Below are positions 1 through 12,881 of a stretch of DNA of 36,549 nucleotides, one piece after another. Below the pieces are notes generated by a model, which searched no databases, was not told the DNA's origin, and saw nothing but the letters and a program-made list of their open reading frames with translations. The stretch comes from an uncultured Paracoccaceae bacterium (GTDB lineage Bacteria; Pseudomonadota; Alphaproteobacteria; Rhodobacterales; Rhodobacteraceae): positions 1 through 36,549 of the forward strand of contig CALHAP010000004.1 in NCBI GenBank assembly GCA_937931795.1. The letters are read 5' to 3'. Every line of letters begins with the position of its first letter. Within the stretch, counting starts at the first letter, position 1. The translations under genes and the position numbers were made by a program.

Positions 1-1
1 T

Positions 2-79
2 CACGACATGATGTCAGCCATTCATGACGAAGCAACGGCGCTGTCGCAGCAGGAACGTATCAATAAGAGGGAGGCGTGA
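2..79 (+). CDS. 3' end of an unidentified gene (partial)
   Basis: An open frame enters from the left edge and stops with TGA at 77-79; the visible residues end in ...QQERINKREA. The stop lies one base before the ATG of the next gene, with GAGGGAGG inside the coding end serving as a ribosome binding site for it. This spacing suggests that the two genes form an operon. Too little is visible to name a function, and the frame could be chance. Confidence 0.45.
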   Translation, partial: HDMMSAIHDEATALSQQERINKREA

Positions 80-80
80 G

Positions 81-350
81 ATGGGATTTCTTATCAAACT
101 AACAGTCGCAGGTGCAGTCGTCATAGGCATTGGCTACTGGATCGCCGAAGGCATTGAGCGCCAAAATGTTCGCGACTGTCTGGCACAGCATAGCCAGCAA
201 TATGGCATCGCTAATGGCCACGATGTGTACCTTACCGATGTGGTCGAAGTGAACATTCATCGGACCTACGGCGACAACACTGAGACCCGCTTCGTTAAGT
301 ACCGCATTCAAGGGTCGGGTGACATCCAGTCGGCCACGTGCCGCTGGTGA
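81..350 (+). CDS. small membrane-anchored hypothetical protein
   Basis: An 89-residue protein starts MGFLIKLTVAG. Residues about 4-22 are a hydrophobic segment (LIKLTVAGAVVIGIGYWIA), followed by a hydrophilic domain of about 65 residues with two cysteines, so it is probably a single-pass inner-membrane protein with its bulk in the periplasm. The ATG at 81 was chosen over an upstream start at 24 because GAGGGAGG lies just before it and the earlier 19 residues are basic and look non-coding. I do not recognise a family. It follows a partial gene with a one-base gap. Confidence 0.5.
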   Translation: MGFLIKLTVAGAVVIGIGYWIAEGIERQNVRDCLAQHSQQYGIANGHDVYLTDVVEVNIHRTYGDNTETRFVKYRIQGSGDIQSATCRW

Positions 351-442
351 TCGGACTACGCATACCATCCACACACAATAACACCATTGATCCGCAATGG
401 CGCAACTCCACCCCAACAGCAGCCAACCATAGAGGACACAAC

Positions 443-784
443 ATGAAATCAACTATTCTCATGCTCACCGCCCTGATCGCAGTCTCCGCCTGTGCAGCGG
501 TCAGCACGACACCTGACCCCCTAGAACAGGCTGTCTCAGGGCGCACTCTTGTGGCTGGCGACACAAGGCTCACGGCGGGTGCGAACGGTGCCCTGGTCGG
601 CACCCTAGCCAGCAGGGACACCCTGTCTGGCACATGGCGCATCACCAACGGCAAGTGGTGCCGCACTCTCACGCAACCCGCTCGGTTCGCAGGGCCAGAA
701 GTGTGCCAAGACGCAGCGTTGGCAGATGGACAACTGGTTGTCATAGGATCGAACGGAAGTCCCACCACATACAACATCGAGTGA
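443..784 (+). CDS. small lipoprotein, hypothetical
   Basis: A 113-residue protein begins MKSTILMLTALIAVSAC: a short basic start, a hydrophobic stretch and a lipobox (VSAC, Cys17), which predicts a signal-peptidase-II lipoprotein anchored in the membrane. The mature part has GTW and NGKWC segments and two further cysteines, as in many small periplasmic lipoproteins of Rhodobacterales, but I cannot assign a family. The ATG at 443 follows AGAGGA, whereas the upstream in-frame start at 338 overlaps the previous gene and would bury the signal peptide. Function is unknown. Confidence 0.6.
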   Translation: MKSTILMLTALIAVSACAAVSTTPDPLEQAVSGRTLVAGDTRLTAGANGALVGTLASRDTLSGTWRITNGKWCRTLTQPARFAGPEVCQDAALADGQLVVIGSNGSPTTYNIE

Positions 785-879
785 TGCGGGACGCATGGTA
801 GCGAGCCACTGAAATCGTGCATGAGTAGTGCTGTGACCCCAATCGGTCACGGCAGCCCGTATCTACACAAGGACCCTAA

Positions 880-1293
880 ATGGCATCGATGAACGCAGCA
901 GCCAAGACTCTTGTCGGACCTCAAGAAAGGGAAGCTCTGTTCAGCAGATTGTGCCACCGTAACACCATAAGACGCGAGATCGGTAGAGAACCAATTGACG
1001 TTCCGACAGCCTTCCATCGCATAGTTCACATGAAAGCCGTGCAGGAATTTGATCGCCTGCTTGATCCATATCTGACCCAAGCTTTCAATGAGGTCGAATG
1101 GCCATCCCGACCTACGCCACGCCTGTTGCTGGGCGTGAAGCTGTATCGTCAGAGCGTTGAACGGCTATGCCGAGAACAGAACGTCGTTGATCCTAGAACC
1201 AAGAACCCAAATGTCTTGAAGATGATCGATCGGTACGCGCCAGACCAAGAAAGCAACGTAACCTTGCTTTCAGCTATCGGAGGCCAGACCTGA
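880..1293 (+). CDS. hypothetical protein of the accessory region
   Basis: A 137-residue soluble protein rich in Arg and Leu starts MASMNAAAK, with AAGGA about 10 bases upstream. No membrane segment or signal peptide is visible and I recognise no domain. A small ORF follows 6 bases after the stop, so the two may be co-transcribed. Position within the island, between small unknown genes and the Rep-like gene, suggests a mobile-element accessory gene, but that is inference. Confidence 0.45.
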   Translation: MASMNAAAKTLVGPQEREALFSRLCHRNTIRREIGREPIDVPTAFHRIVHMKAVQEFDRLLDPYLTQAFNEVEWPSRPTPRLLLGVKLYRQSVERLCREQNVVDPRTKNPNVLKMIDRYAPDQESNVTLLSAIGGQT

Positions 1294-1299
1294 TCGCCC

Positions 1300-1482
1300 A
1301 TGACACTGGTGCTGGGGGACCGTTTCAATCTTGCGCTCATCGAATGGTTTCGGCCACGCAGTGCGCAACATGTGCAAGTGTACGCGTGGGCAAAGGGACC
1401 GTTCAGGGAACACTTTCGAGAGATGGGCCTCCAAGTGCTATCAGTTGTTGAGACATTAACGACTGCCGCCCAAAAACAGTGA
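1300..1482 (+). CDS. small hypothetical protein
   Basis: A 60-residue frame, MTLVLGDRFN..., starts 6 bases after the preceding gene. It contains a WFRPRSAQHVQVYAWAKG segment but no recognisable domain. No strong separate ribosome binding site is visible (GGAGGCC lies in the end of the preceding gene), so translation would probably be coupled. It may equally be a chance open frame. Confidence 0.3.
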   Translation: MTLVLGDRFNLALIEWFRPRSAQHVQVYAWAKGPFREHFREMGLQVLSVVETLTTAAQKQ

Positions 1483-1489
1483 TAGGTAA

Positions 1490-1595
1490 GGCTCCGACTC
1501 AACCTCGCCCCTCTAAGAGAAAGGAAACCCAGCAGATGAACCGCTTCGTCAGGGCGAAGGAGTCAGAGCCTCAGACTGGGTGACTAGCCGAGTCC
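1490..1595. other. foldable intergenic element: nested stem with possible pseudoknot
   Basis: The spacer between the small ORFs and the RHH gene folds well on paper. Arms 1490-1500 and 1560-1570 pair over 11 positions with one mismatch. Inside them CGCCC (1506-1510) pairs with GGGCG (1552-1556). ACCCAG in the loop (1527-1532) is complementary to CTGGGT (1576-1581) after the stem, a possible H-type pseudoknot. A further small hairpin GACT-AGCCG-AGTC follows at 1583-1595. It could be a small RNA or a single-strand origin used by the adjacent HUH protein; no known family is recognised. Confidence 0.4.
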
Positions 1596-1656
1596 TTTGA
1601 AAAGAAACTACGTGAGAGTTTTGCCGTTTCAAGCCCATACAACCCGTCGATGCTCG

Positions 1657-1824
1657 TCATGTTAGATCGTGACCTTCAGCCTCATATTCACGCCAAAGTG
1701 CATCAACCGCATCGTCGATGAGACTGCCATACGACAACCGTGTGTAGACCTTCAGGTAGTCTAAGTGCGTTCGGGTCGTTGCTGCAATCGAGCGTACCGT
1801 AATGTCTCTGGTGTCTGGCTTCAT
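1657..1824 (-). CDS. ribbon-helix-helix (CopG/Arc-like) small DNA-binding protein
   Basis: A 55-residue protein begins MKPDTRDITVRS. The pattern is that of a ribbon-helix-helix fold: a short strand (about residues 7-14, ITVRSIAA), helix A (TRTHLDYLKVYTRL) and helix B starting SYGSLIDDAVDAL. Such proteins dimerise and repress promoters, including copy-control genes next to rolling-circle rep genes. The start at 1824 was chosen because GAGGAG lies about 8 bases upstream; the longer frame from 1896 lacks a site. It is divergent from the HUH Rep-like gene, so control of that gene is a reasonable inference. Family membership rests on pattern only. Confidence 0.6.
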   Translation of the reverse strand: MKPDTRDITVRSIAATTRTHLDYLKVYTRLSYGSLIDDAVDALWREYEAEGHDLT

Positions 1825-1928
1825 ATCAGTTCTCCTCGTTGTATTTAGCGATATCGCGCCAAGAAGTGCTGCGGATGTTGGCTTGCTGATCGACATTTAT
1901 CGCCGATCATCCAACGCTCTTGGGAAAT

Positions 1929-1948
1929 TTCACTATATATCCAGTGAA
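1929..1948. repeat. inverted repeat in the RHH/rep divergent spacer
   Basis: TTCACT (1929-1934) and AGTGAA (1943-1948) form perfect 6-bp arms around an AT-rich 8-base centre. It sits between the divergent RHH gene and the HUH-protein gene, where an operator would be expected. The centre ATATATCC could also be part of a promoter. No binding evidence can be seen. Confidence 0.35.
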
Positions 1949-2014
1949 GCATTTATCATCAGTCGTATGACACCTGTTGGACCACCACCTGCTTCATGAA
2001 GAAAGGAGCAGAGC

Positions 2015-3283
2015 ATGGTAGCCAGCGTCGAAAAGATGCACCGCAACGATCACAGCATTGGCGAGAATCATGTGCCTGCTGATCCGATGTTTCAGATGAA
2101 ATACAACATCGCCAACATGAAGATGGGCCGCATGGAACTTGGCCATAAAAAATGGTGGCAGCGCATGTCAGATGTCGTAAGCGAACTGGACTACCCCGAA
2201 CTCGAACAGGTCTTCAAAGGTCGGAGGTTGCCTAGCTTCGTCGCCGAGCGTCTTAACTCAGAACACCAACAATGGATCACAAGCGGGCAGAAGTACCCAG
2301 ACCGCAAACGGATCGGGAAGGCCCCTAGGTTCAACAGGCGTATTCGCAGGGCATTGGCAGTCTTCTCGAAAGCACCGTTGGGTAACATTGGCTTTCTTAC
2401 CATCGTCACTTCTTTCAAGGGGACAGAGGCCGAAGCGATAGCCGCCGCAGAAGCTGACGCTGTTCGTCTAGGTGCTTTCATCCGACGGCGGTTTCGTCAT
2501 GCCGTTAGCCTACTTTTCCCAGAGGTTGACCTAAAAGTGGCAAGCGATGTTCAGTCGGGCCTGTTACCCTTGGTAGGGTGGAAGCTGGAATACGATCCAA
2601 GGCAACGCATCTTCAAGATTCACTTTCATGGCCTGATCTATGTACCCGACCATACTCCCGCTGACATCGAAGCCGCTTTCAAGATCAACAAGAACGGGAA
2701 GAGGAACAAATTCTATTCTGGTTCAAACCAAGTACGTGTGATCCCCGTCAAAGAGGCTCCTGGTTTCGATGATGGCACAGCGGACGTTGAAGGCGTTGCT
2801 GGGTATGCGACGAAGTATATCTACAACCCGCCCGTCAAAGCCCGAATGCTAGAAGGATTCGTGAGTTGGCTTGTGGTGGCACATGCCCTGCTGAACAATC
2901 CAAAGAGCATTGTTGTCGTAGGCGTCCAGTCAGGTATCAAAGTTCGATGTGATGACTGTGAAACCTATCACGGGATCGATGATGGCTGCATGTGTGAACC
3001 TATCATTCAAAGAGATAATTCGTTTTATGATGTTGATCTGTGTGATGGCGTAGAAACCGCCCCGTTCGCATCGGCCATAGATGAAGGTTTGAGTATAACT
3101 CTAAGTGATGAACAGCCTTATGCTTTTCCCTCTACCCAAGACATATCTCTAAACTCTTCCGCCCCAAGTGCTTGGAATGTTTTGCGGAATAGAGCAAAGA
3201 AAAAACTTTTCAGTGTTTTCGTCTACGTCGGATCATTGATCGGTTGGTGGCTGATAAGCTGGGCAAAACCTCAAGGCCCGTAG
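2015..3283 (+). CDS. HUH-type replication initiator / relaxase-like protein
   Basis: This 422-residue protein carries the three ordered motifs of HUH single-strand endonucleases: motif I FLTIVTS (127-133), motif II with the metal-binding His pair HFH (203-205) in KIHFHGLIYV, and motif III GYATKYIY (263-270) with candidate catalytic Tyr264/Tyr268 and Lys267. Such enzymes nick one DNA strand and stay covalently bound through tyrosine to start rolling-circle replication or transfer. A later CxxC...CxC cluster (312-327) may bind zinc, and residues about 399-416 are hydrophobic, an unusual membrane-like tail. The start follows AAAGGAG. The divergent RHH gene fits copy control. Whether it replicates or mobilises the element is unknown. 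Confidence 0.72.
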   Translation: MVASVEKMHRNDHSIGENHVPADPMFQMKYNIANMKMGRMELGHKKWWQRMSDVVSELDYPELEQVFKGRRLPSFVAERLNSEHQQWITSGQKYPDRKRIGKAPRFNRRIRRALAVFSKAPLGNIGFLTIVTSFKGTEAEAIAAAEADAVRLGAFIRRRFRHAVSLLFPEVDLKVASDVQSGLLPLVGWKLEYDPRQRIFKIHFHGLIYVPDHTPADIEAAFKINKNGKRNKFYSGSNQVRVIPVKEAPGFDDGTADVEGVAGYATKYIYNPPVKARMLEGFVSWLVVAHALLNNPKSIVVVGVQSGIKVRCDDCETYHGIDDGCMCEPIIQRDNSFYDVDLCDGVETAPFASAIDEGLSITLSDEQPYAFPSTQDISLNSSAPSAWNVLRNRAKKKLFSVFVYVGSLIGWWLISWAKPQGP

Positions 3284-3368
3284 CGTGTTTCGGGGCTTAC
3301 TTTGACAAACAAGAACCAAAAATTCGACCAACTTGCCATCCTGCTGTGATGGTAGCCTATTGGTGTAT

Positions 3369-3399
3369 CTTTCTTTCCCTTCGGCGACGTGAAAGAAAG
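3369..3399. promoter_or_regulatory. 9-bp inverted repeat overlapping the methyltransferase ribosome binding site
   Basis: CTTTCTTTC (3369-3377) and GAAAGAAAG (3391-3399) are perfect complements around a 13-base loop. The right arm is the only purine-rich stretch before the ATG at 3405, so it probably includes the ribosome binding site. As RNA the hairpin would hide that site; as DNA it could be an operator for the gene's own HTH domains. Both readings imply autoregulation, which is inference. Confidence 0.5.
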
Positions 3400-3404
3400 C
3401 TAAC

Positions 3405-4871
3405 ATGCACCAAGTTTTCACTCTGACCCTAACCGCCCATCGAACCAATCAGGGCCTACGGCTTTCGGATGCGGCACAGATGTCGGGCCTTAGCGTTCCG
3501 ACGATCCGCAATCTGGAAGCGGGAAAGGGTAACCTCAGTTCGCTTCGAACTTATCTGACATCGCTCGGCCTTAAACTTCATTGGCTCGGTGCAGGTGAAA
3601 GTGGAGATGGCCAATCCCTTGCGCGTCGTCGTCAGAAGCTTGGCGTCAGCCAGAGAGCCATCGCGCAACGTATCAACGTCAGCCATCGCACCGTGATTGC
3701 ATTGGAAAACGATTTCCGTGGTCGGATCGACACATTGGATCGGTGCCTGTCGGAACTACGGTTGAGGCCGACATTGAAGCCGATTGGTGAACAGCCCCGT
3801 GACGACATCAATAGCGTCCAGACTGATGACCAACTTTTATCGGTGTGGAACGCATCTCGTAACGATCCACCACAGATGGCGCTACTACACGGGGATGCTC
3901 TCGACGTTATGCGTTCCATGCCGACCGCAATCGTTGATTGCATAATGACATCGCCCCCGTACTGGCAGCAGCGCACATATGCTGGCGGTGGCATCGGTGA
4001 AGAACAATCAGTCGAAGCGTATCTGAAAGACCTCAGAGCGGTCTTCAAGCAGGCCCACCGCGTTCTGAAGCCCCGTGGGTCACTCTGGATCAACATCGAT
4101 GACACATACCACCAGAGGTCGATGCAAGGCGTTCCATGGCGATTGATACTGGGGATGGTTGAAGACTGCGGTTGGTCTATCCGTAACGATGTGATCTGGC
4201 GCAAATCTGGAGGTGCGTTGAACCGTGCCGACAACCGTTTCGGCCATCGGCACGAACACCTCTTTCATCTGGTCAAACAGGACGACTATCATTTCGATGC
4301 AGATGCTGTCCGTCAGTACCCGACTTTGGCTCGTCTGGACGGAGAGGTGATCGCCACCGCGACTGGAGTCACGATGGAAGCCTGCCTGTCCCGTATCGCC
4401 GACGCCACCGACCTCAACAATGATGAAAGATGCAAAGCGACCGAAGCTGTAAAGGATGCATTCGTGGACATCGCAAAGGGGTTGCTGCACGATTTTCGCC
4501 TGATCATCCGTGGGCAGAACCGCGTCACGCACTCAGACAGCCAGCATACCTCGGCACGTGCAACCAGACTTGTACGCGATGGCTTCTACCTGTTGAAATA
4601 TGACCCACGCGGAAGCTTGTCGGGTGATGTTTGGACGTTGGCACCAGAGCGATCCAAAGGGCGAGACCTCCACTATGCTGCGTATCCAGAGGCCCTATGC
4701 GAAAAGCCGATCTTGGCGACATGCCCTATCGGTGGCGTAGTCCTCGACCCGTTCGTGGGTTCGGGAACGACACTCGCCGCCGCGCAGAGGTTGGGCCGCC
4801 ACGGGATCGGGATCGATCTGTCGGAGGAATATCTGAAGTTGGCCACGGATCGCTTGAACCTTCCCAATTAA
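3405..4871 (+). CDS. double HTH-XRE / DNA methyltransferase fusion (beta-class, probably N4-cytosine)
   Basis: A 488-residue protein. Residues about 5-57 and 69-122 are two tandem XRE-type helix-turn-helix domains (SGLSVPTIRNLEAGKGN; LGVSQRAIAQRINVSHRTVIALEN). The rest is an amino-methyltransferase: catalytic motif IV TSPPYW at 182-187, then a target-recognition stretch, and the AdoMet-binding motif I DPFVGSGTT at 448-456. The order IV before I is the beta class, and SPPY is typical of N4-cytosine enzymes, although N6-adenine is possible. No restriction endonuclease adjoins it, so it looks like an orphan enzyme. An inverted repeat just upstream suggests self-regulation like restriction controller proteins, here fused to the enzyme. 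Confidence 0.85.
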   Translation: MHQVFTLTLTAHRTNQGLRLSDAAQMSGLSVPTIRNLEAGKGNLSSLRTYLTSLGLKLHWLGAGESGDGQSLARRRQKLGVSQRAIAQRINVSHRTVIALENDFRGRIDTLDRCLSELRLRPTLKPIGEQPRDDINSVQTDDQLLSVWNASRNDPPQMALLHGDALDVMRSMPTAIVDCIMTSPPYWQQRTYAGGGIGEEQSVEAYLKDLRAVFKQAHRVLKPRGSLWINIDDTYHQRSMQGVPWRLILGMVEDCGWSIRNDVIWRKSGGALNRADNRFGHRHEHLFHLVKQDDYHFDADAVRQYPTLARLDGEVIATATGVTMEACLSRIADATDLNNDERCKATEAVKDAFVDIAKGLLHDFRLIIRGQNRVTHSDSQHTSARATRLVRDGFYLLKYDPRGSLSGDVWTLAPERSKGRDLHYAAYPEALCEKPILATCPIGGVVLDPFVGSGTTLAAAQRLGRHGIGIDLSEEYLKLATDRLNLPN

Positions 4872-4879
4872 ATTGGTGC

Positions 4880-4974
4880 GTCCGTTAGCCTATAGTGTAG
4901 CGGTCATCACACATCCTCGCCGCAAAGTGTCCGCAGAGGTTGATCACAACATATGTACACCGATATAAACGGAC
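4880..4974 (+). other. tRNA-like or recombination-site-like sequence before the serine recombinase
   Basis: GTCCGTT (4880-4886) and AACGGAC (4968-4974) are perfect 7-bp complements, like an acceptor stem. The sequence TAGTGTAGCGGTCATCAC (4893-4910) resembles a tRNA D-arm with GTG/CAC stem and GG in the loop. However, no convincing anticodon arm or GGTTC T-loop is found. GTCCG occurs twice directly (4880, 4929) and once inverted (4970), so these may instead be recombinase binding sites. Confidence 0.25.
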
Positions 4975-5002
4975 AGGAATCATACGTACACAAGGGGATG
5001 CT

Positions 5003-5635
5003 TTGACCACGATATTTTACGCACGTGTTTCTACACGAGACCAGATACTGGAACACCAAGTTACACAGGCCGAAACAGCGGGCTTCAAGATTGATGAAGT
5101 CGTAGCCGACCATGGGGCGTCAGGGGTGAAGCATCGGCTTCAGGACCGTCCAGAAGGGCGTAGATTATATGATAAACTGCGGTCAGGTGACACGTTGGTA
5201 CTGCGGTGGTTGGATCGACTGGGGCGCAACTATGAGGATGTCACAGACTCAGTTCGCCACTTCATCCGAAAGGGCATCATCATCCGAACTGTCATCAATG
5301 ATATGACCTTCGACGGATCAACTACAGACCCTGTTCAGCAAGCTGTGCGTGACGCAATGATCGCGTTCCTCGCCGCAACAGCCGAAGCACAATCTGAAGC
5401 TACTAAGATAGCACAGCGGGCTGGTATCGATCTTGCCAAAGAAAAAGGTGATCGGTTCCGAGGACGCAAGCCATCCTATGATCGAGCGACATTCGACTTG
5501 GCGGTGAACTTGCTGAACCTTGGCAATGGCCCCAGTGCGGTATCAAAGGAAACAGGTCTGTCACGTCAGACTTTGATCCGCATCCGTGACAAACCCGAAG
5601 ATGCTGCTGCGGTGCTAACAAGGTGGGGATTGTAG
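5003..5635 (+). CDS. serine recombinase (resolvase/invertase family)
   Basis: A 210-residue small serine recombinase. Counting from the TTG at 5003, the nucleophile is Ser10 in FYARVSTRDQ, followed by the conserved DRLGRN at 71-76 and a C-terminal helix-turn-helix at about 164-195 (GPSAVSKETGLSRQTLIRI). It cuts both DNA strands through a phosphoserine link to resolve cointegrates or invert or excise segments. The TTG start was chosen because AAGGGG lies 5 bases before it and family members start right there; the other in-frame start, TTG 4940, adds residues unlike the family. Its substrate site may lie in the 130-bp spacer upstream. Confidence 0.88.
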   Translation: MTTIFYARVSTRDQILEHQVTQAETAGFKIDEVVADHGASGVKHRLQDRPEGRRLYDKLRSGDTLVLRWLDRLGRNYEDVTDSVRHFIRKGIIIRTVINDMTFDGSTTDPVQQAVRDAMIAFLAATAEAQSEATKIAQRAGIDLAKEKGDRFRGRKPSYDRATFDLAVNLLNLGNGPSAVSKETGLSRQTLIRIRDKPEDAAAVLTRWGL

Positions 5636-5691
5636 TGCGATGCAAGGGCCGCAAAATCAGAGCGGGTTTCGTCTCTCTTGTCGAAGGTTAG

Positions 5692-6468
5692 TTAAAGCAG
5701 GGATGGCTGCGCCGAACGGTCGATGCGAACTACACCAGACAATAGCCACTTGTTCCATGCCTCTACTCGATGGGTACCCATTGCAAATGCTATCCCGCGT
5801 TGGGGCATGTCATCGCCCCATTTCGCCTGCATCAAATTTAGAGTTTCTGCTTCGCCGTATTCTTCGCGCCATTTGAAAAATGTCTGCTCCGTCTCCCAAT
5901 CGATGCAAGTATGCGTTAGGGTCGCACCTTCATGAACAAATCGGTAGTGAAACGAATATGGTGCTACATCCTTAGTCAGGATGGTTTCGTCGCCAGAGAA
6001 CATGTCGCTCTGACTAAGTAACGTGTCACGACGCCTTTGTCTTTTGCCCTTCGCTTCAGCACTCAGCGGGCGAATGATGAACTCTGGCGTCTCAGGTCGG
6101 ATCAGCGCGAACGAGTTACCCTTGGCTTTCTCCTCTGCCAGACTGTTAACAATCGCCCTGCGGCCAAATTCGTGCCTTGGTAAGCCTGATAGCTTATGTG
6201 ATTTGACCAGTGACTCGTGTTCTACCCTTTTACTTTCCTTTCGCATGTCACTGGGTGCGGCGCTCCTCCAACGAACCTTGATCACGTCCCATCTACCGAA
6301 CCGTTGGGCCGATGTAAGGTTCTTGAAGGGCATCGGGTACAGGCGATGCCACTTACCGTACATATCTATGCCTGCGACACACACTGTTTCGCCGTGCTTT
6401 TGCCCTGTCTCAGGCGCGGCCTTGACGATGACACATACTTCTACAGGGTCTTGCCAATACTCCGACAA
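5692..6468 (-). CDS. hypothetical protein paired with DUF488 protein
   Basis: A 258-residue soluble protein starting MSEYWQDPVEVCVIVKAAPE. The first 70 residues look like a small beta-rich domain (ETVCVAGID... KWHRLYPMPF... RFGRWDVIKVRW), followed by a longer mixed region with a basic KGKRQRRRD stretch near the middle. I recognise the pattern as recurring next to DUF488 genes but know no function for it. Its start lies 2 bases after the stop of the DUF488 gene, so the two are surely co-transcribed and probably act together. No nuclease motif is visible. Confidence 0.65.
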   Translation of the reverse strand: MSEYWQDPVEVCVIVKAAPETGQKHGETVCVAGIDMYGKWHRLYPMPFKNLTSAQRFGRWDVIKVRWRSAAPSDMRKESKRVEHESLVKSHKLSGLPRHEFGRRAIVNSLAEEKAKGNSFALIRPETPEFIIRPLSAEAKGKRQRRRDTLLSQSDMFSGDETILTKDVAPYSFHYRFVHEGATLTHTCIDWETEQTFFKWREEYGEAETLNLMQAKWGDDMPQRGIAFAMGTHRVEAWNKWLLSGVVRIDRSAQPSLL

Positions 6469-6470
6469 GT

Positions 6471-6923
6471 CTAAACTGCAATATGTTCGATTGGTGTGCC
6501 GAGAAGAGCAGAAAGCCGTTCTGCTACAATCTTACGATGACATCCTTCATGATCACGCTCAAAGCATGTCAGACAAACCCGCTTGCCCGACATCGCACCA
6601 GCAAGATCACTCAAGGCTTCCTGAGCGACTTCACCATCTATGTGCTTGGTAAAAATCTCTACAAATAGATCGTGATTTCCTGCTCGTGCAGCTTCTCGCC
6701 CTGGCTTTGGGTCACCTAACGCCTTGACATGTACGTAGTCGATACCCGCTGCGGATACTGCTGCGTTTAGACCGTTTTTGGAGAACCCCTTCTTACGGGA
6801 CAGCGGAAGGTCTCTAACATCTACCAGCACCTCGATGTTAGATTCCGAGAGTCGGCTCACGAAGTCATCGATGTCAGTCTTTTCATATCCAATTGTAAAT
6901 ATTGGTTCACTGCTCTTTGCCAT
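6471..6923 (-). CDS. DUF488 family protein
   Basis: A 150-residue protein with the hallmarks of DUF488: FTIGYEK near the N-terminus (9-15), LVDVRDLPLSRKKGFSK at about 33-49, and the C-terminal LTCFERDHEGCHRKIVAERL segment with conserved Cys, Glu, Cys-His-Arg residues. The biochemical role of the family is not established; members often occur in accessory regions and in pairs. The start at 6923 is preceded by AGAGGA about 10 bases upstream. It is the first gene of a two-gene unit with the 258-residue protein. Confidence 0.8.
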   Translation of the reverse strand: MAKSSEPIFTIGYEKTDIDDFVSRLSESNIEVLVDVRDLPLSRKKGFSKNGLNAAVSAAGIDYVHVKALGDPKPGREAARAGNHDLFVEIFTKHIDGEVAQEALSDLAGAMSGKRVCLTCFERDHEGCHRKIVAERLSALLGTPIEHIAV

Positions 6924-7064
6924 TGGTTGGTTCCTCTATTTTTCTGCCAATCGTAACTGTAAGCACAGCACTGTCCACCGAATTACGCTGACATCAGCCT
7001 AGTTAAAGCCCCAAAGCGTCCCGAAGCAGGTTCAGCGCAACATGGGCATCTAGCCCCTCGCGCA

Positions 7065-7616
7065 TCATAGAAACCTACTAACCTTGGCAGCGTACTCGGC
7101 ATATTGCTCACCGTAGGTCCGACACAACCAAGGCTCTTCTGCAAATGGGGCCACGATGAGGACCAAGACTGACGCCAAGCCGATTGCGAATGCCGAGGGT
7201 GACGCTGACATAACCACCCATCCCACAACGATCATGATATCTGATACATATTGCGGGTTACGAGAATAACGATACAGCCCTCCTGTCCGCAACTCCCCAG
7301 AAGCACCACCTGTCTGATCGACGCCAAACTTCAGCACTTCCGACCACACACCCAGATTGCCAAGGAAGATCAACGTCCCTCCTAAACCGTATCTGATTGC
7401 AACGGGAATGGTCAAAGAACCCCACTCCATGACACCAACAACGATCATGGTGCCAAACAGGGTGAACGTTGGCACCCAAACCAAGATCGGTGTCAGTGTT
7501 GTATATTTTTTCGGCGGCCACAGTCGGCGTTCGGGATAGGCGATGGACCAGACAATCGCGGCCAAAGTCCCGAACGCAATAACGACACCTATAGATGTAA
7601 ACAGAACGACCATCAT
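7065..7616 (-). CDS. isoprenylcysteine carboxyl methyltransferase family membrane protein
   Basis: A 183-residue protein with about five hydrophobic segments. The C-terminal half has the family signature: GGLYRYSRNPQYVSDI (AdoMet-binding RNPQY motif) and EEPWLC..YGEQYAEYAAKVSRF. Family members use AdoMet to methylate small-molecule or lipid substrates in the membrane; prokaryotic substrates are mostly unknown. The ATG at 7616 overlaps the TGA of the CDF gene (ATGA), so translation is coupled; a longer frame from 7817 would overlap that gene by 200 bases. It is the third gene of the MerR-controlled operon, and such genes are common in metal-resistance clusters. Confidence 0.8.
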   Translation of the reverse strand: MMVVLFTSIGVVIAFGTLAAIVWSIAYPERRLWPPKKYTTLTPILVWVPTFTLFGTMIVVGVMEWGSLTIPVAIRYGLGGTLIFLGNLGVWSEVLKFGVDQTGGASGELRTGGLYRYSRNPQYVSDIMIVVGWVVMSASPSAFAIGLASVLVLIVAPFAEEPWLCRTYGEQYAEYAAKVSRFL

Positions 7617-8251
7617 GTTGCACCGTGGATGTGCGGCATGGCGTCTCGTCGTTCCTGCAACGCCTGACGCACGATCTGGAATGCCGATGACAGGAACAAT
7701 GTTGCCATGATCCCCGCAACGATCAGGTCTGGCCAACCTGTCGCTGTCCCCCAGACGCCGAAGGCGGCCAAGACGACTGCTACATTGCCGATGGCGTCGT
7801 TGCGTGAACACAGCCACACCGATCTGACGTTGGCATCTCCGTCCTTGTATCGAACCAGTAGGAGTACGCTGGCTAGGTTTGTTGCCAGTGCCATAACACC
7901 TACGACCCCCATGATGCCCGCTTCAGGCACTCCAACATAAAATACGCGGTAAAGGGTCGAGCCAAAGACCCAAAGACCCATCAAGAGGAGGCTCAGTCCC
8001 TTTGCCAATGCAGCATTCGTGCGCACCTGAATGGACGCACCAATGACCGCCAGTGAGATTCCGTAGGTCAGGGCATCGCCTAAGAAGTCCAATGCATCGG
8101 CCTGAAGGGCCTGAGACTGGGCATAGTGACCCGCCGACATCTCGACCACAAACATCGTGGCGTTCAGGGCGATGACAACCCACAGGCGGCGTTTGTAGTC
8201 AGCAGATACACCTTCGAACTTGGCTTCGTGTCCACAGCAACCCGACATCAC
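7613..8251 (-). CDS. short CDF-type cation transporter
   Basis: A 212-residue membrane protein of the cation diffusion facilitator type, predicted to export divalent metals across the inner membrane. The TM2 metal site is D55-FLG-D59 in QADALDFLGDALTYG. The TM5 site reads C148-SRN-D152, with Cys in place of the usual His or Asp, which would favour soft metals. It starts MMSGCCGHE with a Cys-Cys-His cluster. It ends right after TM6, lacking the roughly 90-residue cytoplasmic domain of YiiP-type exporters. The start overlaps the preceding stop (ATGA). It is the second gene of the MerR-controlled operon. Confidence 0.85.
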   Translation of the reverse strand: MMSGCCGHEAKFEGVSADYKRRLWVVIALNATMFVVEMSAGHYAQSQALQADALDFLGDALTYGISLAVIGASIQVRTNAALAKGLSLLLMGLWVFGSTLYRVFYVGVPEAGIMGVVGVMALATNLASVLLLVRYKDGDANVRSVWLCSRNDAIGNVAVVLAAFGVWGTATGWPDLIVAGIMATLFLSSAFQIVRQALQERRDAMPHIHGAT

Positions 8252-9018
8252 ACAGCCTCCTTCACATTGGGCTGTTGAGGGGGCAAAGCAGATGCGGGAC
8301 CATTAGGGATGGTCGGCACAACGCCACGACGCAGGCGGTCCACACGTGCATTCATCCAGTGGCGGATCACGAGTCTATACAGCAATCCATTGATGCCACG
8401 CAGTTGTCGATGTTCTGCGTAAAAAGCATCTGGTGATGCGAATACTCCAAAGTCGGCGTTGATCCCCGCTCTTTGGATATATGTGTCACGCCCAGACCAG
8501 CCGACATCAGGGGCATGGAGCTTGTCCGTGCCTGCACCAAAGGCACAGATACTATCCTGATCGGGGAAAGCTGTTTGCAGAGCAGTCAGCACCGCATCAT
8601 CAAGGATGAAACCCTCATGGGTGACCCATCTCCCGTCTAGTGAAACCTCAACCCAAGAGTGCAGGATGTTGGTAGGTGCAAGGGGGTAAACGATTTCGGG
8701 GACGATACCACGTTGCAAAGACTTGTGGATCGTGAAGCCATGGAAACGGCACGGCAATCCCATAAGCCGCAGCAATGCCATCAGAAGCGTGGCCTTTGTA
8801 TTGCACTGACCGTAGCCATCCCGCAGCACGTCAGAGGCTGGCAAGGTATCGTCGCTGTTATACCCAAAAGCGATTTCATTCCTGACAAACTTATAGGCGG
8901 CTTTTGCCCGTTCAGCGGGTTCCAGTGCTGACCACCCACGATCCGCAATCAGTGACAGGATCGGGCCTGATGAATAATCAAGCAGCGGGGTCTCTTGGGT
9001 CATTGGATCAGAGGACAT
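8248..9018 (-). CDS. transglutaminase-like family protein
   Basis: A 256-residue protein with a transglutaminase/protease-like core: catalytic Cys72 in DGYGQCNTKATLL, His120 in ILHSWVEV, and at the third position Glu135 (RWVTHEGF), where the family usually has Asp. No signal peptide is seen, so it is probably cytoplasmic. Its substrate is unknown. The start at 9018 follows AAGGTG; the longer frame from 9045 would begin upstream of the expected transcription start and is rejected. It is the first gene after the MerR-type promoter and its stop overlaps the CDF start, so it is part of the metal-response operon. Confidence 0.8.
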   Translation of the reverse strand: MSSDPMTQETPLLDYSSGPILSLIADRGWSALEPAERAKAAYKFVRNEIAFGYNSDDTLPASDVLRDGYGQCNTKATLLMALLRLMGLPCRFHGFTIHKSLQRGIVPEIVYPLAPTNILHSWVEVSLDGRWVTHEGFILDDAVLTALQTAFPDQDSICAFGAGTDKLHAPDVGWSGRDTYIQRAGINADFGVFASPDAFYAEHRQLRGINGLLYRLVIRHWMNARVDRLRRGVVPTIPNGPASALPPQQPNVKEAV

Positions 9019-9047
9019 ACGAATCACCTTTTCTTTGTGTCCCACCC

Positions 9048-9078
9048 TATCTACAACCTCTAGTCACTAGAGCTTCAA
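9048..9078 (-). promoter_or_regulatory. MerR-family metal-responsive promoter/operator
   Basis: Reading the minus strand, the -35 box TTGAAG (9078-9073) and the -10 box TAGATA (9053-9048) are separated by exactly 19 bp. The spacer contains the perfect dyad CTCTAG-TGA-CTAGAG (9058-9072). A stretched 19-bp spacer with a centred dyad is the hallmark of promoters untwisted by CadR/ZntR/PbrR-type activators. It drives the transglutaminase-CDF-methyltransferase operon and lies 13 bp upstream of the regulator gene, so the regulator probably controls itself too. Confidence 0.88.
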
Positions 9079-9090
9079 GAGGTAAGTTGC

Positions 9091-9507
9091 ATGTTTTCTA
9101 TCGGGCAGTTGTCAAAGCAGACTGGTGTGAAAGTGCCTACCATTCGGTACTACGAGCAGGTCGGGTTGCTTGTGTCCGCAGGGCGTACCGAAGGAAATCA
9201 ACGACGTTACGACAAAGGCGGTCTGGAACGCCTTGGGTTCATCAGACATGCCCGTGACCTCGGATTCTCTATCGAGGCCATCACCGCATTGATTGATCTA
9301 CAGCAACATCCTGACCGCTCCTGCCAAGAGGCTACGCTGATCGCCCAGCATCAACTGACCGATGTGCGAGAGAAGCTGCTAAGACTCAAGGCACTGGAAG
9401 CCGAACTGGTTCGCATCGCAGACGGATGCGATGGTGAAGGAAATTCAGAGGAATGCTATGTTCTGGCATCTCTGGCCGACCATCAGCACTGTCGTGGAGA
9501 ACATTAA
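9091..9507 (+). CDS. MerR-family metal-responsive regulator (CadR/PbrR/ZntR type)
   Basis: A 138-residue regulator with the N-terminal winged HTH (FSIGQLSKQTGVKVPTIRYY, then GNQRRYD), a dimerisation helix and a metal-binding loop. Cys78, Cys113 and Cys122 align with the metal-binding cysteines of CadR/PbrR/ZntR proteins, and Cys134 with a C-terminal HQHC adds possible ligands. This points to divalent soft metals (Cd, Pb, Zn or Hg), not to copper sensors, which lack Cys78. It is divergent from the operon it presumably activates. The exact metal cannot be told from sequence. AGAGGTAAG upstream is a plausible ribosome binding site. Confidence 0.9.
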   Translation: MFSIGQLSKQTGVKVPTIRYYEQVGLLVSAGRTEGNQRRYDKGGLERLGFIRHARDLGFSIEAITALIDLQQHPDRSCQEATLIAQHQLTDVREKLLRLKALEAELVRIADGCDGEGNSEECYVLASLADHQHCRGEH

Positions 9508-9559
9508 TGCGCTTCGTCGTACCAAAATTACGACGCAAGTATGCTGGACATGATCGAAA

Positions 9560-11122
9560 CTATTCACCAACACAGTCCATCTTGTTGACCCATTCCAACT
9601 GGTTCTCCAAGTCTTCAAAGTGAAAACGATACCGCTTGGCCGAAGACGACTTTGAGTCGGACTTATGCCCCATGATGGCGTTACGCATTGTTTCGGACAT
9701 ACCCACATTCATGGACTCACCTGCCCAGCTATGACGCAGGCTATACAAAACCTTTTGCCTATCTGACGTTATGTGTTCTCGCAGATGCTCACTCCAGTCG
9801 GCCCCAATTGGCGTGGCATACCGCCCCTTGTCTGTCATCGGTTCAAACGATGGGAACAACAGACCCGCATTGCTGACCCGACGCACATGGTCGATGTGAT
9901 CGGACAACCTTGGAAGCAGTAGCCTATGGATCGGAACACCTTGTACCGACTCTTCGTTCTTGAGTTTACGATCAGGTGCCTCAAGGTCATCAGTCTCATT
10001 GGTGATCACAATCCCCATACGGTCCAGATCGACATCATCCAATCGAAGCTGGCATATCTCTTCTGGTCGCGCCCCTGTCCACACCAGCATATGCAATGCA
10101 GTGATCAAATCTGTCTTGCGAGACAACTGGGTCCGATGCGTTTGGTAACGTCGGCGGGTCCAGGCATCCGTCGCCACATCGATCAACTTACGCACCTCAG
10201 GTTTCGTAAATGGCTTGTAAACCTGATCACCTTGAGAGCGTGTATCCCTTGGGGCTTTGACAGTCTTGCTTACGTTATGGGGAACAGCTTCTGCAATTGT
10301 TGCGAACTCTAAAATCGCGCTCAACCTGTCGAGCCGTTGCCTCACAGTTGACGGTGCCAACGGCTGACCCTTGATCCTAACTTTGCCAAGATGTGCCACG
10401 TAGTCTGATAGATGCTGCTTGGTGATGTTCACTAAGGGCAGATTGCCATGCAACTCGATGAACTCTTCGATAGCCCGATAGTGGCCATCGATGGTTGGTT
10501 GGCGTGGCTTGTTCTCCTCATGCATCTTGGGGAGAATTGTGCGGAGGGTTTCACCATTTGGGGTTTCAAATTTATCGAGTCTCCGCCGTGTCTGTCCAAT
10601 TCTGAGCTTCGCCAGTTCCAGTTCGTCGGCATCGTCAGCTTTTATCGCTAGTGTGCGTTGCCTCATGAACTTCCCTTGCAGCATCATCTCGCTGCCCGTC
10701 ATCACAAGATATCCCTCGGCCTCCGCTTGCTTCAGGAACTCTGGGTCATTGCTACCCGCCACCTTGTAAGTCTTGATGATCTTGCCATCTCGGTAAAACT
10801 CAAATGGCGGCTTCTGCTTGTTGATTGGAAGGTTTTCGGGGCTGAAGTCCAACTTCATACTGAGCGTATCATCGACCTTGCTGTGCTGTACAATCGCCGC
10901 GTCTTCGAAACTGCCAAGCATCAAGCGATTATGTTTATGTGCCAAAGCACCTGCTTCAACCCTTCGGGCAGCCTCGGTGGCTCCTTCCAACTTGATGTTC
11001 CATTCTGTCCCGCTGTCAAAGAACTCACGGAACTCAGGTGGTATGGCGCGACGGTAGTAAAAGTGCTTACCACGCGGCTTTATGTAGTTGGCTTTGCCGC
11101 TTCGTGGCGTAAACTGCGACAT
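9560..11122 (-). CDS. tyrosine recombinase / phage-type integrase
   Basis: A 520-residue site-specific integrase. The N-terminus (KHFYYRRAIPPEFR, about 19-33) is the arm/head region typical of alphaproteobacterial island integrases. A core-binding domain spans about 208-290. The catalytic domain shows Arg352 (TGARPEE), Lys388, Arg463-His464 (LYSLRHS), His486 (MGHKS) and the nucleophile Tyr498 (KRYRF). The first His of the HxxR box is Tyr460. The start is preceded by AAGGGG. It lies at the border between accessory and core genes, pointing outward, and most likely integrates the element. Direct repeats upstream may be its arm sites. Confidence 0.92.
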   Translation of the reverse strand: MSQFTPRSGKANYIKPRGKHFYYRRAIPPEFREFFDSGTEWNIKLEGATEAARRVEAGALAHKHNRLMLGSFEDAAIVQHSKVDDTLSMKLDFSPENLPINKQKPPFEFYRDGKIIKTYKVAGSNDPEFLKQAEAEGYLVMTGSEMMLQGKFMRQRTLAIKADDADELELAKLRIGQTRRRLDKFETPNGETLRTILPKMHEENKPRQPTIDGHYRAIEEFIELHGNLPLVNITKQHLSDYVAHLGKVRIKGQPLAPSTVRQRLDRLSAILEFATIAEAVPHNVSKTVKAPRDTRSQGDQVYKPFTKPEVRKLIDVATDAWTRRRYQTHRTQLSRKTDLITALHMLVWTGARPEEICQLRLDDVDLDRMGIVITNETDDLEAPDRKLKNEESVQGVPIHRLLLPRLSDHIDHVRRVSNAGLLFPSFEPMTDKGRYATPIGADWSEHLREHITSDRQKVLYSLRHSWAGESMNVGMSETMRNAIMGHKSDSKSSSAKRYRFHFEDLENQLEWVNKMDCVGE

Positions 11123-11135
11123 AGATCAGACCCCT

Positions 11136-11168
11136 TATTGGGACAATTTACCCTCACTATTGGGACAA
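11136..11168. repeat. direct repeat pair upstream of the integrase
   Basis: TATTGGGACAA occurs at 11136-11146 and again at 11158-11168, 22 bp apart, or about two helical turns, immediately upstream of the integrase ATG (minus strand). Same-face repeats at this place are good candidates for integrase arm sites or a repressor operator. Confidence 0.5.
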
Positions 11169-11334
11169 AACAAGAGTCTTCAAAGTGGAGGGGCACCATG
11201 CTGAACGAAAATTACGCCTTAACTATCAGTAAGTTAAAGACATTTCGATTTCGCAACTCGCCCTATGGATGGTCATCCGAAAATATGAAATACATCTGCG
11301 CCAGCGTTTAATGCGCGATTAGCAGAAATTAAAT

Positions 11335-11370
11335 AGCCTGCCCAACGGTTTAACATCCATTGGGCAGGCT
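11335..11370. terminator. strong hairpin at the element/core junction
   Basis: AGCCTGCCCAA (11335-11345) and TTGGGCAGGCT (11360-11370) are perfect 11-bp arms around a 14-base loop. On the plus strand GGAAAAAATT follows; on the minus strand the hairpin is followed by ATTTAATTT, which is only a weak U-tract. It could be a terminator insulating the integrase from the LytTR gene or a recombination feature. Confidence 0.4.
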
Positions 11371-11476
11371 GGAAAAAATTTGGTACTAAAATACTCAAAC
11401 GCTTTCGCGTGGACCACTCACGGTCTCATTAAAGTGAACACCTAATCCCCCTTGTTTTCAAAGGCCGTTTCGTGAA

Positions 11477-12295
11477 ATGATGCTATCATTCGCGAATTTT
11501 AACCAAAGTATTTTGACGATGCGTAAGTATTATGCCGATGGGATGACTGACAAACGGGTGATCGTGGGATTTGCGTTCCTGATCGTTCTGGTGATCGTCG
11601 GACCGTTCGGAACCTATGAACAATTGACCCTTTCAGAGCGGTTTGTTTACTGGACCGTCCTGATGATGGGAATTGGCCTGTTTATGGCCATCTTCATTTC
11701 GGCAGCAGTCGAATCACCCAGCCTGAGCAAGATGTCGATCTATTTCAAATTGGCGATTGGATCAGGCCTTGCCGCCATTCCCGGCACGGCGGTGCTGATC
11801 TTTGTGAAGCGGGTCTTTGAGATGGACGGCGCGGACAGCCTTAACCCGGCGCTGCTGGCGGTGCAGATCGCCGCAGTTGGGTGGCTCTACGGGCTAGTCG
11901 AACATCTCGATTGGCGCAAACCCCACACTGATACCGTCGCGCCAAGTCGTCCCATGCCCGAAGCCATTACCACACGGTTTCACGCCCGCCTGGATCACGA
12001 CACAGGGCACAACATCATATCGCTCAGTATGCAGGATCACTATGTTGAGGTGACCACAGACACGGGGCGGCAAATGATCCTGATGCGGATGTCTGACGCC
12101 TTGGCCGAGTTGGACGCATTGCCCGGCCTGCGCATTCACAGATCGCATTGGATCGCCACGGCCCATCTCGACGCCCTGCACCGCGAGGGCGGCAAACCCC
12201 ACGCGCGGCTCAGTGATGGACGCAGCCTGCCGATTTCCAAGCCCAACGTCACGGCAGTCAGCGACATATTGGACCAGCGCGAAAATAATTCGTGA
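11477..12295 (+). CDS. membrane-bound LytTR-domain transcriptional regulator
   Basis: A 272-residue protein with four predicted membrane segments (about 28-44, 57-77, 88-110, 124-143) followed by a C-terminal LytTR DNA-binding domain (about 165-268: ISLSMQDHYVEVTTD, GLRIHRSHWIA, SDGRSLPISKPN). Such membrane-anchored LytTR proteins bind direct repeats and regulate nearby genes without a receiver domain. The start is uncertain: ATG 11477 or the in-frame ATG 11519, neither with a good ribosome binding site. It lies 43 bp before an ECF sigma gene on the same strand, so it may belong to the same regulatory unit. Confidence 0.82.
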   Translation: MMLSFANFNQSILTMRKYYADGMTDKRVIVGFAFLIVLVIVGPFGTYEQLTLSERFVYWTVLMMGIGLFMAIFISAAVESPSLSKMSIYFKLAIGSGLAAIPGTAVLIFVKRVFEMDGADSLNPALLAVQIAAVGWLYGLVEHLDWRKPHTDTVAPSRPMPEAITTRFHARLDHDTGHNIISLSMQDHYVEVTTDTGRQMILMRMSDALAELDALPGLRIHRSHWIATAHLDALHREGGKPHARLSDGRSLPISKPNVTAVSDILDQRENNS

Positions 12296-12338
12296 CGTCC
12301 GCCAAGGATTGCGCTGCCACGCCCGTCACACCATCATT

Positions 12339-12881
12339 ATGCGCATGACAACCCCAGACGAAGACTTGGCCAGTGCAGCGGCAGGTGGTGACAGACAGGC
12401 CTTTGCCAGCCTGCTCGACCGCCACTACGACCGCCTGTTCGGGCTATGCTTTCGCCTCACCGGCAGCCGCGCCGAGGCAGAAGACCTGTGCCAAGACATC
12501 TGCACTGCCCTGCCCGCCAAATTGGGCAGCTACAGGCGACAAGCAAAGGTCAGCACATGGCTTTACCGCGTCGCCGTTAACGCGGCCCACGACCGCCGCC
12601 GCAAACGCGCAACATATATAAAAGCCAGCGACGGCTGGGGCACGTGGGAGATCAACCGCCAAGCCGAACTGTCCGAGACCCAAGATCAGGTCTCATGGCT
12701 CCACCACGCCATGGCGCAGCTCTCCGACGATCTACGCGACACGCTGGCGCTGATCCTTGACGATATTACCCACGCCGAAGCAGCCGACATCCTCGGCATC
12801 TCCGAAGGCACCGTAAGCTGGCGCGTCTCCGAGGCGAAAAAACGCCTCCGCGCCCTCAAACAACAGGAGGAGGCACAATGA
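12339..12881 (+). CDS. ECF-type RNA polymerase sigma factor
   Basis: A 180-residue sigma-70-family factor. Region 2 covers roughly residues 22-90 (DRLFGLCFRLTGSRAEAEDLCQ, STWLYRVAVNAAHDRRR) and region 4 about 125-175 (LRDTLALILDDITHAEAADI, SEGTVSWRVSEAKKRLR with its HTH). The start at 12339 (or 12345) was chosen because the longer frame from 12213 runs through the LytTR gene. Its stop overlaps the ATG of the VWA gene (ATGA) and an AGGAGGAGG lies just before, so the two are translated together. The VWA protein may act as its membrane partner. Confidence 0.85.
   Translation: MRMTTPDEDLASAAAGGDRQAFASLLDRHYDRLFGLCFRLTGSRAEAEDLCQDICTALPAKLGSYRRQAKVSTWLYRVAVNAAHDRRRKRATYIKASDGWGTWEINRQAELSETQDQVSWLHHAMAQLSDDLRDTLALILDDITHAEAADILGISEGTVSWRVSEAKKRLRALKQQEEAQ

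Follow-up and report, generated by a model that had tools for sequence, protein, structure and literature searches.

A putative rolling-circle replication initiator with HUH motifs in integrative defense islands of Rhodobacteraceae-related bacteria

The window analyzed in this study is a stretch of 36,549 nucleotides that constitutes contig C4 of a 2.68-Mb genome in 251 contigs (82% complete). Its left part is occupied by an island, the left end of which lies off the contig. The rep gene (2015 to 3283, plus strand) encodes a 422-residue HUH endonuclease-like protein, a putative replication initiator with a single conserved tyrosine, Tyr264, and an amphipathic C-terminal region. It is faced by a gene of 55 codons on the minus strand (1657 to 1824) and followed on the plus strand by two further genes. 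One of these encodes a 488-residue orphan N6/N4 DNA methyltransferase with N-terminal HTH domains (3405 to 4871; PF01555, 2.8e-49; HTH_3, 3e-12), which may serve to mark the element or to control rep; the other encodes a small serine recombinase of the resolvase/invertase family (5003 to 5635; PF00239, 1.2e-24; phrog_125), the probable role of which is the resolution of multimers. Next come a 258-residue cargo gene (5692 to 6468, minus strand) that matches the candidate defense model PDC-M19B (PADLOC, 1.5e-31) and further cargo of low GC content (6471 to 9507), comprising DUF488, phospholipid-methyltransferase-like, cation efflux, and transglutaminase-like genes and a MerR regulator. A 520-residue tyrosine integrase (9560 to 11122, minus strand; PF00589, 1.5e-8), which is 62% identical to the integrase of a sister island (L003), lies at the edge of the island, as the initial annotation had stated, next to the 3' end of a gabD-like gene.

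The right boundary of the island is formed by this 3' end (attR, 11285 to 11311, plus strand), which encodes MKYICASV followed by a stop codon. Two exact TATTGGGACA repeats, starting at 11136 and 11158 and thus 22 bp apart, occupy positions 11136 to 11167 (plus strand) and are probable arm sites of the integrase. The same pair is found at both ends of L003, and a pair with one base changed, 23 bp apart, is found at the left end of the island in genome G136. The count of this decamer in the window is not unusual, as 31 of 100 shuffled sequences contain at least two copies when one mismatch is allowed; its weight lies in the shared placement in three islands. The GC content is 52.5% inside the island (1 to 11285) and 59.0% outside (beyond 11310), and that of the bin from 10501 to 12500 is still 53.1%. 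Neither a second copy of the att sequence nor a further match to the gabD C terminus was found elsewhere in the genome. Evidence that the window island is integrated comes from attR, the shared arm sites, and the gene order of the host, its left end lying beyond the contig. In the related genome G301, the matched part of a sigma-factor gene (window position 12296 onward) starts 70 bp after the gabD stop codon, and a VWA gene comes next, as it does beyond the window island; the flank of the window is therefore host DNA. The two genes are placed together in three of the seven relatives in which both could be located (G301, G099, and G296), with a distance of approximately 2.1 to 2.2 kb in G099 and G296, and lie on separate contigs in G292, G294, G295, and G299. 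A LytTR-domain gene (11477 to 12295), in a region still low in GC, is situated between the island and the sigma-factor gene and is absent from this place in G301.

The three HUH motifs proposed for the Rep in the initial annotation are all present in the protein. Motif I (GFLTIV) spans residues 126 to 131, motif II (HFHG) residues 203 to 206, and motif III (GYATK) residues 263 to 267. The resulting order, I-II-III (residues 126, 203, and 264), is typical of plasmid Reps, whereas Mob proteins have the reversed order, III-II-I (PMC5714925). Seven members of the family and one remote relative, both described below, were aligned. The relative positions of the motifs are identical in the six full-length members once their starts are aligned; motif II occurs in all seven, and GYxxK is kept in the six full-length proteins and in the remote relative, which has HVH at the position of motif II. 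Even with this 20%-identical sequence included, 21 columns are invariant, among them Gly126, Val131, His203, His205, Gly263, Tyr264, Lys267, and the last residue, Pro422. Because the residue after the motif III lysine is tyrosine or lysine in the members and arginine in the remote relative, the conserved catalytic tyrosine is a single one. The full-length sister Reps are 31 to 53% identical to the window protein.

The cysteine cluster of the initial annotation (C-x2-C-x9-C-x-C, residues 312 to 327), which may be a zinc site, is present in five of the six full-length proteins and missing from that of L011. The window protein does have the hydrophobic tail, with a best 19-residue Kyte-Doolittle mean of 1.65 within the last 60 residues, but this is not a family trait: the same value is 0.37 to 0.98 in the other five full-length proteins, which means that no membrane helix is conserved. 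Accordingly, we rejected anchoring in the membrane through this tail as a property of the family. By contrast, although the residues that precede it are poorly conserved, the very end of the gene (3272 to 3283, plus strand) reads [QR]-Gly-Pro-TAG in all six full-length members. TAG stops 53 of the 219 mechanically called ORFs of at least 150 residues in these loci, so its use in six of six is unusual, bearing in mind that the members are related; the conservation of this end may concern the protein or the DNA. One Rep of the seven, that of L003, ends after motif II and before motif III. This locus (L003:1476-2769, in a Pelagimonas MAG) is a decayed member in which the cut Rep overlaps a shortened serine recombinase.

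Profile libraries do not recognize the protein. The window sequence matched no Pfam or PHROGs model up to an E value of 1, and the seven members gave no credible match to Pfam, PHROGs, or NCBIfam (best E values of 0.03, 0.019, and 0.12, respectively, reached by one member in each case). The family profile found no PDB chain below an E value of 1.8. AlphaFold models of the full protein and of residues 96 to 312, built on alignments of three sequences, had pLDDT values of 38.4 and 36.9; because this confidence is low, the outcome speaks neither for nor against an HUH fold, and a Foldseek search with the model of residues 96 to 312 gave nothing meaningful (best E value, 0.79). A profile of eight sequences (the seven members and the remote relative) was also compared with eight VP4 Reps of microviruses. 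The score was 26.2 (P = 0.016), and the alignment pairs HFHG with HWHV and GYATK with RYAAK of VP4. Four unrelated families scored 11.7 to 18.6 over both profiles, i.e., with and without the remote relative, and the reversed profile scored 19.8 against VP4; 26.2 was reached by 2 of 200 column shuffles and by none of 200 shuffles of five-column blocks. The likeness to the gokushovirus/microvirus initiators, in which the HUH and YxxK segments pair within one profile alignment, is nevertheless marginal and is lost when the remote relative is left out: the score then falls to 18.8 (P = 0.17), the level of the unrelated controls, and the motifs are unpaired. The VP4 proteins compared are phage-borne and have 276 to 344 residues, whereas the window Rep is island-borne and has 422. 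The match obtained with the remote relative favors an HUH reading without proving it.

The gene that faces rep was described in the initial annotation as a ribbon-helix-helix gene. A divergent gene that resembles a regulator lies upstream of rep in all seven loci and encodes 55 to 67 residues with 17 invariant columns and 45 to 67% identity to the window copy, compared with 32 to 61% for the Reps, but the ribbon-helix-helix pattern (one strand and two helices) is a reading by eye. With the seven proteins, Pfam gave no ribbon-helix-helix match (the best hit was to an unrelated family, with an E value of 0.085), a PDB profile search gave nothing up to an E value of 10, and a PF01402 search gave no match in any of four carrier genomes. 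The gene probably encodes a repressor of rep. In the region between the two genes, a TATTTA hexamer (1842 to 1847) adjoins the divergent gene upstream, is unchanged in the seven aligned loci, and is a probable promoter or operator element. The inverted repeat TTCACT-N8-AGTGAA (1929 to 1948) has no perfect counterpart in the other loci, although a CTA-N2-TA block inside it is common to all seven; it may be an operator or part of an origin. When the intergenic regions were aligned in search of a conserved origin, only TATTTA and CTA-N2-TA were constant, which is too little for an origin to be named.

Relatives of the Rep are rare in the genomes searched. A scan of genome contigs with the window Rep found two, on a contig of an uncultured Rhodobacteraceae bacterium and in the Pelagimonas MAG. 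Matches were found in 6 of 292 genomes of the order (including the window's own genome and one artifact), in 3 of 394 of the family, 2 of 385 of the class, and 2 of 398 of the phylum (each including the window's own genome), in 3 of the 56 genomes sampled from one genus, and in 1 of 101 relatives, again the window's own genome; these samples overlap, and the counts are not additive. The second match of the phylum sample, in G1077, is weak (E = 0.006 over 66 positions). A match in G121 was rejected, as it is antisense to a 599-residue ORF, reads through a stop codon, and stops short of the HUH motif. The Rep family consists of seven loci, distributed over six genomes that are all assigned to the taxonomic family of the window: the window, G028 (L011), G603 (L003), G104 (L012), G136, and G161, which has two (on C4 and C21; L010 and L014). 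In tblastn or seeded scans of plasmids, phages, and IMG/VR, the last of which depend on seed peptides, neither the remote homologue nor the Reps of the window and L014 had a relative, and the family alignment likewise had no match on plasmids, phages, or viral contigs. No free circular form was seen in consequence.

The sister loci bear out the integrative element postulated in the initial annotation, and in three of them both ends are fixed by exact att repeats. The element of G104, 13.1 kb long, lies between two copies of a 24-bp sequence from the 3' end of tRNA-Tyr. The two elements of G161 measure 23.5 kb, between 23-bp copies of tRNA-Ala sequence, and 19.7 kb, between 20-bp copies of tRNA-Cys sequence. 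All three enclose rep. The site in G028 is tentative, because the 16-bp repeat at tRNA-Arg, 15.1 kb apart, has one mismatch and only 12 bp are exact (E = 0.049). At either end of L003, a gabD-like 3' end is accompanied by a pair of TATTGGGACA repeats. In G136, where the right end of the island is not on the contig, an intact gabD-like gene precedes repeats of the TATTGGGACA type. The window island, L003, and the island of G136 share the gabD 3' end as their target. Homologues were not confined to a nonmobile context, the outcome that would have counted against the initial annotation. The check that it proposed, for a shared gene order in relatives, was positive for the HUH protein, the divergent small gene, and the serine recombinase, which form a core common to all seven loci, but not for the methyltransferase, which occurs in three (the window, L014, and L012 of G104, where it is split over two overlapping ORFs). 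An XRE regulator of 139 to 145 residues is present in five of the seven islands; the window is cut off there, and none was seen in G104. Two families of small ORFs are each found in four of the seven islands. At the left of the window, a small ORF with a possible membrane segment, judged by eye (24 to 350, plus strand; no Pfam match), is 55% identical to the ORF at the same place in L011, and a 137-residue ORF (880 to 1293, plus strand), which has no Pfam or PHROGs match, has relatives in L011 and L010 directly and in L013 via L010. The recombinases of the window and G136 are 85% identical, whereas their Reps are 33% identical, a pattern that indicates the shuffling of modules among islands. 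The two islands of G161 (L010 and L014), at tRNA-Cys and tRNA-Ala, carry Reps that are 34% identical.

At least one gene in each of the seven islands matches a defense model, that of the window being only a candidate (PDC-M19B). The defense cargo of the window comprises this candidate and the orphan methyltransferase. By model match, the cargo is HsdM and HsdS in G028; HsdM, GmrSD, E1-E2/JAB, and a metallo-beta-lactamase-like protein in G161-C4; an MmeI-type IIG enzyme, DarT, and DarG in G161-C21; an MmeI-type enzyme and RmrA in G136; a type II methyltransferase and restriction enzyme and a DndB/DpdB-like protein in G104; and a ThsB-like (Thoeris-like) TIR protein in L003. Nine of 20 cargo proteins had no PADLOC match at an E value of 0.001. 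No model underlies the assignment of the HsdR genes and of the integrases in the two islands of G161, which were recognized by eye or from similarity. In the G028 island (L011:1310-2614), a dGTPase-like gene, identified by eye, lies between hsdS and the probable hsdR. The initial annotation had not recognized the sister elements as defense islands.

The remote homologue (L064:9674-10795, on C82 of G874) belongs to the same class but to a different alphaproteobacterial family. Its contig (L064:1132-17900) also carries type I restriction-modification genes, an XRE-like ORF, and an integrase-like ORF. The HsdM and HsdR proteins of G874 are 46 to 47% identical to their counterparts in G161-C4, and the HsdS protein is 29% identical. 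No further copy was found in the order of G874 (1 of 9 genomes, G874 itself). Because a homologue and restriction-modification genes occur together in a different family, the association of the HUH protein with defense islands may predate the family of the window.

These loci display a conserved HUH-motif protein, site-specific integration, a shared core, and differing defense cargo. We consider it probable that the window contains the right-hand part of an integrative, plasmid-like defense island with a rolling-circle HUH Rep. Weighing against this are the low profile score once the remote relative is omitted, the lack of a credible library match for the Rep, the fact that neither an origin nor a free circular form was found, the separate contigs of gabD and the sigma-factor gene in four relatives, the missing left end, the candidate status of the window's own defense model, and the loss of motif III in one Rep of seven. 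The most likely role of the HUH protein is to initiate rolling-circle replication. The tyrosine integrase inserts the island at the 3' end of the gabD-like gene, as shown by the att remnant, the arm repeats common to the sister islands, and the gene order of the host; in the mechanism that we propose, it would also excise the island. After excision, the HUH protein would nick an origin on the circle via Tyr264, while the two motif II histidines would hold a metal ion, and rolling-circle copying would start. The divergent ribbon-helix-helix-like protein would keep the expression of rep down, the serine recombinase would resolve multimers, and the island would spread by helper mobilization or by a route that is not visible in the scanned genes.

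The same protein could instead be a relaxase that nicks an oriT for transfer by a helper type IV secretion system, the island being integrative and mobilizable and its replication secondary. The nicking chemistry is common to Reps and relaxases, helper mobilization has been found for many genomic islands (PMC5714925 and PMC11389934, respectively), and the contig of the remote homologue bears a relaxase-like ORF, identified by eye (L064:16776-17900). We regard this as rather unlikely, however, since the motif order is that of Reps, a regular expression for relaxase-like histidine clusters found no ORF of at least 70 residues in the seven islands, and no transfer gene was detected among the scanned proteins, which cover the ORFs of the sister islands in part. 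The tyrosine integrase at tRNA ends, the size of 13 to 24 kb, the defense cargo, and the XRE regulators of the islands would all fit phage satellites, whose helper phage would package rolling-circle concatemers, with rep serving helper-induced amplification. Satellites, too, have a tyrosine integrase at tRNA ends, a size of 13 to 24 kb, and XRE regulators, and defense cargo is known in them; the last point is documented in PMC11389934. Against this reading, which appears quite improbable, stand the lack of a phage structural or packaging match among eight window proteins compared with PHROGs and the failure of searches in phage records and IMG/VR to find a relative.

We give the least credence to the reading in which the HUH gene is a nonfunctional remnant of an integrated plasmid and the islands move, if at all, only by the integrase and transduction. 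The L003 rep, cut before motif III and overlapping a shortened recombinase, would fit such decay, as would the rarity of the Rep family in the samples searched, but six of the seven Reps are full length and keep the catalytic residues and the C-terminal end at 31 to 53% identity to the window protein, which suggests selection. Within the interpretation of the island as an integrative element with a rolling-circle Rep, a more specific proposal is offered tentatively and with some doubt: the protein may represent an unnamed family of HUH Y1 initiators dedicated to excisable rolling-circle defense islands, the copy number of which, and thereby the dosage of their defense genes, would be switched by the divergent ribbon-helix-helix-like protein. 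Such a family would be found in Rhodobacteraceae-related bacteria and, remotely, in other Alphaproteobacteria, with a C-terminal cysteine cluster in most members and a Gly-Pro carboxyl end in all full-length ones.

Integrated plasmids with HUH Reps are an already known kind of element, to which the window island is comparable. Kazlauskas et al. (2019) described pCRESS groups and five taxon-specific clusters of integrated HUH-Rep elements (PMC6668415); these unassigned clusters come from Clostridiales, Actinobacteria, Neisseriales, Bacteroidetes, and MSBL1. Like the islands described here, those elements are integrated site specifically into the chromosome and bordered by direct repeats, with no viral structural proteins reported in the groups examined there; by description, they differ in that they belong to other taxa, and islands of the window type carry defense cargo. 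The main text of that article, at least, does not contain the words "Rhodobacter," "Alphaproteobacteria," "restriction," or "integrase." A literature search, the scope of which ended short of most subscription papers and preprints, recognized no paper on this gene set.

By analogy, the best functional parallel would be the AICEs such as pSAM2. AICEs integrate at tRNA targets. Those of the pSAM2 type combine a tyrosine integrase with a Rep that drives rolling-circle replication once the element has been excised (PMC3218068). On the other hand, they are actinobacterial, i.e., from a different phylum, and the Rep described here is not recognized by Pfam. No FtsK/SpoIIIE-type transfer protein was detected by Pfam among the main ORFs of the window island and part of the ORFs of the sister islands. 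The PICI, P4-like, and PLE satellites are small integrase-bearing chromosomal islands with anti-phage cargo. The islands described here share with these defense satellites their small size, integrase, and cargo (PMC11389934), but no packaging or capsid gene was detected among the eight window proteins scanned with PHROGs.

The seven islands, three with both ends fixed, have a common core and varied cargo and provide a concrete vehicle to test. The route by which defense islands travel is often obscure, as many have no obvious transfer genes. If the HUH reading is true, the protein represents a further lineage, unrecognized by any of the profile libraries used, and such islands may for that reason be undercounted; the replication of an excised circle would also be tied to the dissemination of anti-phage systems and possibly to their dosage. 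In the methyltransferase of the window (3405 to 4871), the gene for which lies downstream of rep in three islands, two HTH-like stretches are found at the N terminus.
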